Positions 1,555 through 56,275 of a stretch of DNA of 64,000 nt are shown piece after piece. The stretch is taken from positions 496,001-560,000 of the forward strand of contig NZ_FOCE01000002.1 of NCBI RefSeq assembly GCF_900110025.1, given 5' to 3'. The notes under the pieces were generated by a model. The model searched no databases. It saw only the letters and a program-made list of their open reading frames with translations, and was not told the DNA's origin. Origin of the DNA: Gemmobacter aquatilis (lineage in GTDB: Bacteria; Pseudomonadota; Alphaproteobacteria; Rhodobacterales; Rhodobacteraceae). Both the position numbers and the translations under genes were made by a program. Position 1 is the stretch's first letter, and each line of letters starts with the position of its first letter.

Positions 1555-1720
1555 CGGGGGGCTTTCCGCCCCCCGCGCGCCTGCGGCGCTCCCCCTGTGG
1601 GTATTTTTACAAAGAAGAAGGCAGATACGCACTTTGTCTTCTTCTTCTTTGTAAAAATACCCACAGGGGGTGAATTGGCCGCAGGCCAAGAGGGGGGCAG
1701 TCGCCCCCCTCTTTTATTTT
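1555..1720. repeat. Two head-to-head copies of modular intergenic repeat A; right half ends as a terminator
   Basis: The centre is a perfect 30-bp inverted repeat (1591-1620 and 1641-1670) separated by 20 bp; its arms carry the box GGGTATTTTTACAAAGAAG. Outward from each box comes a G/C run, then a small hairpin, then a larger G-rich hairpin. On the left these are GCGCC-tgc-GGCGC (1577-1589) and CGGGGGGC-tttcc-GCCCCCCG (1555-1575). On the right they are GGCC-gca-GGCC and GAGGGGGGC-agtc-GCCCCCCTC (1690-1711), followed by TTTTATTTT, which makes the right half a plausible intrinsic terminator. The same box-hairpin-hairpin plan recurs at other sites in the window. Confidence 0.85.
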
Positions 1721-6040: not shown

Positions 6041-6100
6041 CATTTTCTGTTTGAAAATATCCCCGCCGGAGGCACGCGCTTTTGCGGCGGCGCCAGCCGA
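6041..6100. repeat. Degenerate copy of repeat A between convergent genes
   Basis: Contains the repeat-A box CATTTTCTGTTTG...AAATATCC (6041-6062), followed by GC-rich sequence in which the two hairpins of other copies are no longer clear. It lies between the SLT lipoprotein gene and the 3' end of pepN, which converge here. Confidence 0.55.
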
Positions 6101-15479: not shown

Positions 15480-15529
15480 AACGGGGGCAAGGCGCGTCGC
15501 CTGCCCCCTTCTTCTTTGCAAAAATACCC
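15480..15529. repeat. Partial copy of repeat A / convergent terminator
   Basis: The box CTTCTTCTTTGC...AAATACCC (15508-15529) is preceded by an imperfect GGGGGCAAGGCG...CGCCTGCCCCC hairpin. It lies between the convergent 3' ends of glcB and the aminopeptidase P gene and could terminate glcB. The two hairpins that normally follow the box are missing. Confidence 0.55.
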
Positions 15530-17366: not shown

Positions 17367-17384
17367 CGCGATCCCCTTCATCCT

Positions 17385-17444
17385 GACAAAAATACTCTCG
17401 GGGTGAATGGGCGCCTTGGCGCCCAGAGGGGGGCGAGCCCCCCT
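17385..17444. repeat. Repeat A copy between cobT and the aminopeptidase P gene
   Basis: A shortened box (ACAAAAATACTCTCGGGGTGAA) is followed by hairpin 1 TGGGCGCC-tt-GGCGCCCA (17408-17425) and hairpin 2 AGGGGGGC-ga-GCCCCCCT (17427-17444). It ends 3 bp from the cobT stop codon, so on the minus strand it may act as a terminator or mRNA 3' stabiliser for cobT. Confidence 0.7.
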
Positions 17445-19388: not shown

Positions 19389-19548
19389 CGGGGGGCTGTC
19401 TGCCCCCCGGTCCGCCTGCGGCGGCCCTCCCCCCGAGGATATTTTTCAACAGAAAATGAGAGCCGTGCGGTCCTGTCCATTTTCTGTCCGGAAATATCCT
19501 CGGGGGTTGAGGCGCGGCTTGCGCCGAGGGGGGCAGACAGCCCCCCTC
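19389..19548. repeat. Two head-to-head copies of repeat A in the cobS-cobT gap
   Basis: Left copy, reading leftwards: box GGATATTTTTCAACAGAAAATG, hairpin CCGCC-tgc-GGCGG (19412-19424), hairpin CGGGGGGC-tgtct-GCCCCCCG (19389-19409). Right copy, reading rightwards: box CATTTTCTGTCC...AAATATCC, hairpin GGCGC-ggctt-GCGCC (19511-19525), hairpin GAGGGGGGC-agaca-GCCCCCCTC (19526-19548). The loops and stems differ between copies while pairing is kept. The arrangement is the same as at 1555-1720. Confidence 0.85.
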
Positions 19549-21219: not shown

Positions 21220-21340
21220 GCCACGGCCCCCGGCCCCGGGCGGCATCATCAGATCGGGATCTTTGCGTCAGGTTGAACCGTCTGCTTGTGGCTTTCACCC
21301 TGGCTCAAATACTCATCCTTCCCGCCGAAAAGGCAGGACC

Positions 21341-21397
21341 AAAGCGGCACAGGGGGTGTACGGGCGGTGTACGCCTGTCACCCCCCCCCCGTTTTCG
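21341..21397. repeat. Repeat B copy 1 (GTGTAC / GTCACCCCC hairpin)
   Basis: GCGGCACAGGGGGTGTACGG is followed by a second GGTGTAC and by CGCCTGTCACCCCCCCCCC then GTTTTCG. The outer GGGGGTG...CACCCCC pair forms a stem. Compared with the copy at 56234-56275 it contains an internal duplication of the GGTGTAC segment. It lies between the convergent genes msrB and the J-domain gene and may act as a terminator for both. Confidence 0.65.
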
Positions 21398-44309: not shown

Positions 44310-44395
44310 CTTTCATCTTGGCCCAAATATCCCGGGGGAGTCGCGCACAGCGCGACGGGGGCAGCGCCCCCGCGCACAGGCTCCGCCTGTGCTCC
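44310..44395. repeat. Repeat A copy after the AEC gene
   Basis: The box CTTTCATCTTGG...AAATATCC (44310-44332) is followed by GGGGGAG, then the hairpins GTCGCGC-aca-GCGCGAC and GGGGGC-agc-GCCCCC, then an extra GCACAGGC-tcc-GCCTGTGC. The 23-bp box is present as an exact inverted copy at 45452-45474, on the other side of the first permease gene. Confidence 0.8.
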
Positions 44396-45398: not shown

Positions 45399-45427
45399 CG
45401 CTCGGGTCTCCTGACTGAGAGGTCGGT

Positions 45428-45474
45428 GGGGGCCTTGCCCCCACACCCCCAGGATATTTGGGCCAAGATGAAAG
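45428..45474. repeat. Repeat A copy between the two permease genes (inverted)
   Basis: Hairpin GTGGGGGC-ctt-GCCCCCAC (45428-45446 area) is followed by the box GGATATTTGGGCC...GATGAAAG (45452-45474), which is the exact reverse complement of the box at 44310-44332. Hairpin 1 of the full element is missing. Confidence 0.75.
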
Positions 45475-55595: not shown

Positions 55596-55670
55596 CATTT
55601 TCTGTTTCCAAATATCCTCAGGGGGTGAATGGGCGCGCAGCGCCCAGAGGGGGCGCGAGCGCCCCCTTTT
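55596..55670. repeat. Repeat A copy in a divergent gap
   Basis: The box CATTTTCTGTTTCC...AATATCC (55596-55617) is followed by GGGGGTGAAT, hairpin GGGCGC-gca-GCGCCC (55631-55645), hairpin AGGGGGCGC-ga-GCGCCCCCT (55648-55667) and a T-rich tail. It is a complete single copy, here between two divergent start codons, so it must be transcribed as leader or lie between promoters. Confidence 0.8.
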
Positions 55671-56198: not shown

Positions 56199-56233
56199 GC
56201 CGCCTGCGCAAAAAGGCACAACGGCTGCGGCAC

Positions 56234-56275
56234 CTTTGCGGTACAGGGGGTGTACACATGTCACCCCCCCTTTTC
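56234..56275. repeat. Repeat B copy 2 (GTGTAC / GTCACCCCC hairpin)
   Basis: CTTTGCGGTACAGGGGGTGT and ACACATGTCACCCCCCCTTTTCG. GGGGGTG pairs with CACCCCC around a TACACATGT centre, and a T-run follows. The same flanks (GCGG, ACAGGGGGTGTAC, TGTCACCCCCCC, TTTTCG) occur at 21341-21397. Both copies lie between convergent genes; here between the DUF2244 and yqeY genes. Confidence 0.7.

Follow-up and report, generated by a model that had tools for sequence, protein, structure and literature searches.

A family of short intergenic repeats in Gemmobacter aquatilis and other Rhodobacteraceae combines two features newly brought out by sequence comparison: genomes use their own dialects of a box word, while the places and orientation of the boxes are often inherited. 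The first-pass annotation of the window, i.e., the whole 64-kb stretch of G. aquatilis DNA analysed, had described the repeat as such and could not see this combination, its main feature. The usual explanations for intergenic repeats scattered through a genome are debris of mobile elements and terminators, and inherited place and direction combined with a species-differing word is a pattern otherwise described for uptake sequences. Many Rhodobacteraceae carry up to nearly two hundred such marks, often kept in place and direction but with species-specific words, which suggests a factor that reads them.

Repeat anatomy and copies in the window

The repeat unit consists of a bipartite 22-bp box followed by a G-run and one or two GC hairpins (HP1 and HP2). 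The box consensus is Y-H-T-Y-W-T-C-Y-K-K-K, three free bases and AAATA-Y-Y-C, with a variable left half and a right half made of AAATA, two variable bases and C, so that boxes in G. aquatilis (genome G000) end in TATCC, TACTC or TACCC. The left half is linked to the ending, and 110 copies from G000 fall into four linked types, in which TTGG pairs with TATCC (28/29), TGTT, TGTC or TGTA likewise with TATCC (40/41), CTGG or CTGA with TACTC (25/25) and TTTG with TACCC (14/15). The module after the box comprises HP1 and HP2 in 57 of these copies, one hairpin in 38, CGGAGG in five and other sequence in ten; identical single-hairpin modules recur. Among the boxes listed for G000, G151 and G157, 31 of the 32 pairs within 70 bp are inverted with the hairpins on the outer sides, as counted by eye. 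The free bases (N) of the box differ between the arms in many of the listed pairs, so arm-to-arm pairing is not what is kept.

A scan of the window at ≤2 mismatches found 11 boxes versus none in controls (Table 1). The pair at the start of the window includes a perfect inverted repeat of 30 bp (1591-1620/1641-1670), and on each strand, two of the window's units have folds that beat those of shuffled sequences (z −2.1 to −3.7). All eight places named in the first-pass annotation do hold copies, three of which are reduced (6041-6062, 15508-15529 and 45426-45473). Its list had missed the box at 21293-21314.

Table 1. Positions of the repeat copies in the window. Gene names are our own reading of the translations, made without a family search.
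Feature	Position	Strand	Details
Complete unit, left arm of inverted pair	1556-1620	-	box 1599-1620 = CTTCTTCTTTG-N3-AAATACCC, G-run, HP1, HP2
Complete unit, right arm of the same pair	1641-1709	+	box 1641-1662, G-run 1666-1670, HP1 1675-1689, HP2 1692-1709
Reduced copy, CATTTTCTGTT-type box	6041-6062	+	followed by CCGCCGGAGGC module, without G-run and hairpins
Reduced copy, CTTCTTTG-type box	15508-15529	+	without hairpin module; between malate synthase G and pepP
Complete unit	17376-17443	+	between pepP and cobT
Complete unit, left arm of inverted pair	19390-19458	-	cobT-cobS gap
Complete unit, right arm of inverted pair	19478-19546	+	cobT-cobS gap
Box with one mismatch	21293-21314	+	TTTCACCCTGG-N3-AAATACTC
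Complete unit, TTTCATCTTGG type	44311-44371	+	3' of an ABC-transporter permease gene
Reduced copy	45426-45473	-	box 45452-45473, G-run, single hairpin; 5' of the same permease gene
Complete unit, CATTTTCTGTT type	55596-55666	+	

Rfam 15 gave three tRNAs and no other family at gathering score in the window; at 1500-1760 its matches were sub-threshold only, mostly microRNA-type hairpins on the inverted pair. The open PubMed Central literature, as represented by titles and the starts of abstracts, holds no named description of the family either, in agreement with the first reading, which knew of no named family. A second repeat of about 60 nt, with GGTGTAC and GTACRCMTGTCACCCCCC, lies on the plus strand at 21328-21387 and 56211-56270 and has 21 matches in the genome at ≤2 mismatches versus none in controls.

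Genome-wide counts and spread among bacteria

The repeat family is real and not a product of chance, and it is genome-wide rather than limited to the window, as had been proposed from the window alone. Across the whole G000 genome, a strict motif matched 74 copies and its reversed pattern none, while a general box pattern matched 189 times and its reversed pattern not once (3.96 Mb in 33 contigs), i.e., about one box per 21 kb. A 36-column profile built from the 74 copies scored above 12 bits at 109 places in 676 kb versus none in the reversed sequence; these 676 kb (overlaps counted) were taken mostly around copies, and the density is valid only from the whole-genome searches.

The mention in the first-pass annotation of similar boxes in other Rhodobacteraceae proved right: exact boxes occur in 67 of 149 genomes of the family (one per genus), as counted with a pattern that admits many words, not all, and misses those outside it, and the reversed pattern gave a single match overall. 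At least 70 boxes were found in three of the 149 besides G000, whose 189 copies are the maximum among the genomes counted, and all 11 genomes of the genus carry between 29 and 189. Outside the family, one or two matches were present in 26 of 237 genomes of the same class (reversed control in five); no amplified word was seen in these 237, though single matches exceed the control. A looser pattern, run with no control and with some chance-like hits, placed boxes in loci of Rhodobacter, Ruegeria, Sedimentitalea, Jhaorihella and Thalassovita. Part of the unit is matched by 30 plasmid records, including plasmids of Leisingera, Phaeobacter and Cereibacter, and the box itself was observed in the Leisingera and Phaeobacter stretches; none of the phage records matches the unit.

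Hairpin pairing

As the first reading had noticed, the hairpins vary in sequence while pairing is kept. HP1 sequences are nearly unique to each copy (47 distinct among 57), and stems of at least 5 bp form in 51 of the 57 copies versus 6% of shuffles. RNAalifold on a MAFFT alignment called six pairs, none changed on both sides, and missed HP1, whose copies are not alignable by sequence; pairs were therefore counted in HP1 regions anchored on their flanks. Among 37 distinct interiors of 56 from G000 and other genomes, at the best of nine offsets, 139 of 156 cells were Watson-Crick (shuffled mean 107, maximum 128), with several pair types at each position. Across 98 stems (of 104 distinct regions), the HP1 cells comprised 594 Watson-Crick, seven G-T, no A-C and four other combinations. 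HP1 pairing thus survives sequence change.

A pairing between the HP2 loop and the three bases preceding the G-run is not established: it occurred in 26 of 95 copies (permuted mean 16, maximum 27), with 19/38 in the single-hairpin class (9.5 expected, maximum 16) and 7/57 in the two-hairpin class, below the chance value of 11.

Gene context and orientation

Our own gene finder places 100 of the 110 copies between genes: 34 lie in convergent and 9 in divergent gaps, and the two tandem orientations account for 26 and 31. In this count, the ten copies inside gene calls were taken as called, and the stretches were mostly chosen around copies. This variety of contexts bears out the earlier view that the repeat is not just a terminator. 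Copy-bearing gaps were convergent in 28 of 81 cases versus 80 of 563 other gaps (p 2e-5) and divergent in 8/81 versus 99/563 (p 0.11). Tandem gaps with a single copy numbered 14 and 19 in the two orientations. Since the tandem orientations are similar, both among copies and among single-copy gaps, a strand-specific mRNA element, one of the roles first suggested for the repeat, is disfavoured. Split by module, two-hairpin copies favoured one tandem orientation 18 to 8 and single-hairpin copies the opposite one (9 to 16, p 0.025). Among the copies in the analysed stretches, six genes read by eye have boxes on both sides (hemC, purC, argF, pepP, cobT and the ABC permease). No replication polarity was apparent by eye along the longest G151 contigs, where orientations look mixed.

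Box dialects at orthologous addresses

Genomes differ in how many words they hold. Among words that the search pattern can see, all 100 listed boxes of G151 (of 115) read TCATCTGTT-N3-AAATATCC and all 29 boxes of G149 read TCTTCTTTT-N3-AAATATCC, apart from variation in the initial one or two bases of both. There are four words in G000 and three or more in G157, and other genera use other words.

Orthologous gaps were compared between G000 (window positions 2-21.9 kb and further stretches of 18 and 19.9 kb) and ten congeners, mostly at 70-89% DNA identity; two of the three regions had been picked for being box-rich in G000. A box was held by some genome in 14 of 47 gaps, and a control of 42 kb of reversed gaps gave one box at ≤3 mismatches and none at ≤2. 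The congener had a box in 38 of the 72 comparisons in which G000 has one versus 2 of the 219 in which G000 has none (odds ratio 121, or 86 when gaps shorter than 40 nt are left out), the address being unshared in the other 34 of 72, nearly half. Single boxes at shared addresses had the same orientation in 23 of 23 cases. Their words are often not the same: left half-boxes differ between orthologues in 37 of 45 comparisons, in nine of the 37 by one letter. An exhaustive mismatch scan left the orthology counts unchanged, and a stricter scan (exact boxes in G000, ≤1 mismatch in congeners) gave 18/53 versus 13/238, with five boxes in the same and three in the opposite orientation, partly because one arm of some pairs drops out.

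Individual sites illustrate the pattern. One site is boxed in 10 of 11 genomes. At 17376-17443, a box in the same orientation (≤3 mismatches) is present in seven of the eight congeners with a gap below 700 nt; no box was seen by eye in the 0.97-kb pepP-cobT gap of the ninth, G157. In this gap of G157 (locus L085), roughly 0.97 kb of additional, apparently coding sequence stands in place of the element or short gap of the congeners. The inverted pair of the cobT-cobS gap is present, with differing words, in six of seven congeners that have the orthologous gap. Here, G150, G151 and G154 share an identical right flank, which runs from AAATATCC to the cobS stop, next to left half-boxes that read ATTTTCTGTC in G150 and G154 and TTCATCTGTT in G151; the left arm of the pair differs more, and G151 is without its HP1 there. 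At another orthologous site, conserved flanks enclose a box and a hairpin module that are both different between genomes. G150 and G154 are a close pair, with aligned blocks 89-95% identical; each of the seven G154 boxes corresponds to one of the eight in G150, whose remaining box lies near an alignment break.

Boxes within a genome resemble each other more than under label permutation (11 of 2000 permutations reach the observed value, with G154 left out). Overall, similarity is higher among orthologous boxes (0.71) than among paralogues within one genome (0.66), an order that reverses when G000 and G154 are left out (orthologous 0.68, paralogous 0.76). The within-genome excess and the likeness of orthologues together indicate that descent and genome-wide convergence both act on the words.

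Transposase, terminator and gene transfer agent searches

The suggestion of a REP-like family in its classical form was not supported. The Y1/RAYT transposase (PF01797) has no match in G000 and is present in one of the 11 genomes of the genus, and neither a column table covering box and G-run of the 74 copies nor the alignment of 46 complete units, in which the box is non-palindromic, contains a conserved GTAG-like head. A RAYT-driven REP was rejected on these grounds. The five Y1 transposase matches in the genus all lie on contig C2 of G150, the other ten genomes having none. By eye, the cobS-cobT gap of Frigidibacter sp. SD6-1 (locus L103) appears to hold a RAYT-like gene between palindromes of the TAGGATGGGCAATA type, seemingly a genuine REP/RAYT locus that is unrelated to the 22-bp-box family.

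A terminator detector was positive at 24 of 41 gene ends that meet the element HP2 first versus 36 of 272 gene ends without the element, and also at 15/24 ends with pairs and 8/37 box-first ends. By our own count, 17 of the 24 hits rest on the element's own UAUUU, and the hairpin adjoining it barely beats shuffled sequence (mean −13.1 versus −11.6; 64 of 110 copies beat their own shuffled mean). Within 6 nt after HP2, four or more T occur in 8 of 87 copies. With so few U-tracts after HP2 and an opposite strand barely better than shuffled, a plain intrinsic terminator is unsupported as an account of the whole family.

The marker TIGR02217, which we take to be a gene transfer agent gene, was found in 36 of 44 genomes with at least five boxes versus 79 of 105 others (p 0.52), G104, G114 and G141 being counted as lacking it since they are absent among the matches listed. 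A link between the boxes and gene transfer agents was therefore rejected.

Explanations for dialects at inherited addresses

We tentatively prefer, with somewhat less than even confidence, an explanation in which gene-border marks co-evolve with a putative DNA reader. The repeats would form a Rhodobacteraceae family of marks, many of which have stayed at fixed addresses through vertical inheritance, and a trans-acting factor, probably a DNA-binding protein, would read the 22-bp word. As the specificity of the reader shifts over evolution, the words would follow, so that each genome would end up with a single dialect or a small number of them without loss of place and orientation; the repeats might mark gene borders, possibly to restrict traffic from one gene to the next. 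The dialects, the shared addresses with agreeing orientation, the likeness of boxes within genomes, the linked box halves, the convergent enrichment, the kept HP1 pairing and the matching boxes of G150 and G154 fit this reading. The word change beside an unchanged flank at cobT-cobS, the free N bases and the distinct HP1 sequences suggest that reading, and not merely copying, preserves the word, and action on DNA rather than as a strand-specific RNA is suggested by the similar tandem orientations. Of the roles first suggested, a nucleoid-protein site, or another kind of site read on DNA, may therefore apply. The four words of G000 and the three or more of G157 would require several readers or one tolerant reader. 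Counting against a reader are the nearly half of addresses that are unshared, the left-half differences of a single letter, the weaker contrast and mixed orientation in the stricter scan and the overall likeness of orthologous above paralogous boxes, as do the differing other arm at cobT-cobS and the site where box and module differ together. Moreover, rewriting about a hundred sites through selection alone is demanding.

A REP-like mobile family, i.e., small non-autonomous elements moved by a putative transposase, with the linked-half subfamilies as successive copying waves, is unlikely in our estimate. It would account for co-existing subfamilies with linked halves, recurring identical single-hairpin modules, inverted pairs, the unshared addresses (34/72), the blockwise difference of box and module at one orthologous site and the divergent-gap proportion (8/81 versus 99/563). 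Against it speak the lack of a RAYT match in G000 and in nine of the other ten genomes of the genus, the lack of a transposase (read by eye) among the six genes boxed on both sides, addresses and orientation common to genomes mostly 70-89% identical in DNA, a word change that adjoins an unchanged flank and an HP1 nearly unique to each copy. Gene conversion of whole units is disfavoured by the distinct HP1 sequences and the cobT-cobS flank, and is kept possible by the site of joint box and module change. An RNA 3'-end element, whose hairpins would act in mRNA as terminators or in processing and stability, appears distinctly unlikely. GC hairpins at gene ends with pairing kept, the enrichment in convergent gaps, the detector hits at HP2-first ends and the small G-T excess in the stems fit such a role, whereas the dependence of most of these hits on UAUUU, its weak adjoining hairpin, the rarity of T-runs after HP2 and the similar tandem orientations do not. 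The 7-to-0 excess of G-T over A-C, the orientation bias by module type and the terminator-like hits may leave room for some RNA role.

We consider it quite improbable that the word is an uptake-sequence-like watermark that biases DNA exchange, through transformation or gene transfer agents, and so converts alleles to the current dialect. Such a process would bring with it a drive able to rewrite words where they stand, and PMC3630211 describes DNA uptake sequences that have species dialects, sometimes two dialects in a genome, and inverted pairs between genes. A density of about one box per 21 kb compares poorly with the 943 to 5918 copies per genome given there for Neisseriaceae, and the intergenic position of 100 of 110 copies, the fixed hairpin module and the unassociated gene transfer agent marker also argue against it. 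A bolder form of the preferred reading would be a word-and-reader system outside the known uptake lineages, in which a fast-changing reader and a drive rewrite inherited gene-border addresses genome-wide in Rhodobacteraceae species and the words are a lineage watermark tied to structured gene ends; we regard this as speculative and somewhat unlikely. Genomes with one dominant word, such as G151, open the putative reader to a direct test by DNA pull-down. Because the family is abundant, its words could also be useful as markers of lineage in DNA exchange.

Comparison with known systems

Intrinsic terminators have a GC hairpin near gene ends with a U-tract directly after it. The repeats share the GC hairpin near gene ends and differ in having no regular U-tract after HP2, in standing in both orientations and in carrying a 22-bp word. 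REPIN elements are likewise intergenic, present in many copies and arranged in inverted pairs. For the Pasteurellaceae uptake signal sequences, we know of no tie to a fixed GC hairpin module.

REP/RAYT systems resemble the repeats in being intergenic, numerous and inverted in pairs (100/110 copies intergenic and 31/32 close pairs inverted here), whereas theirs, as described in PMC2817692, is a GTAG/GTGG-headed palindrome with a Y1 transposase, and the present repeats have no such head and no RAYT match in G000. Repeated words with lineage variants are shared with the Pasteurellaceae uptake signal sequences, which are 9 bp long (PMC1626085; variants according to PMC3630211). The DNA uptake sequence of the Neisseriaceae is a 10-mer that is commonly intragenic and read by ComP, according to PMC3630211. 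It is unlike the present repeats in that these have a bipartite word of 22 bp, at most 189 copies (in 3.96 Mb, far from the very high copy number of uptake sequences), a nearly always intergenic position where tested and a hairpin module. It is like them in its dialects, with one word taking species-specific forms and a genome sometimes holding two of these, and in its inverted pairs between genes.
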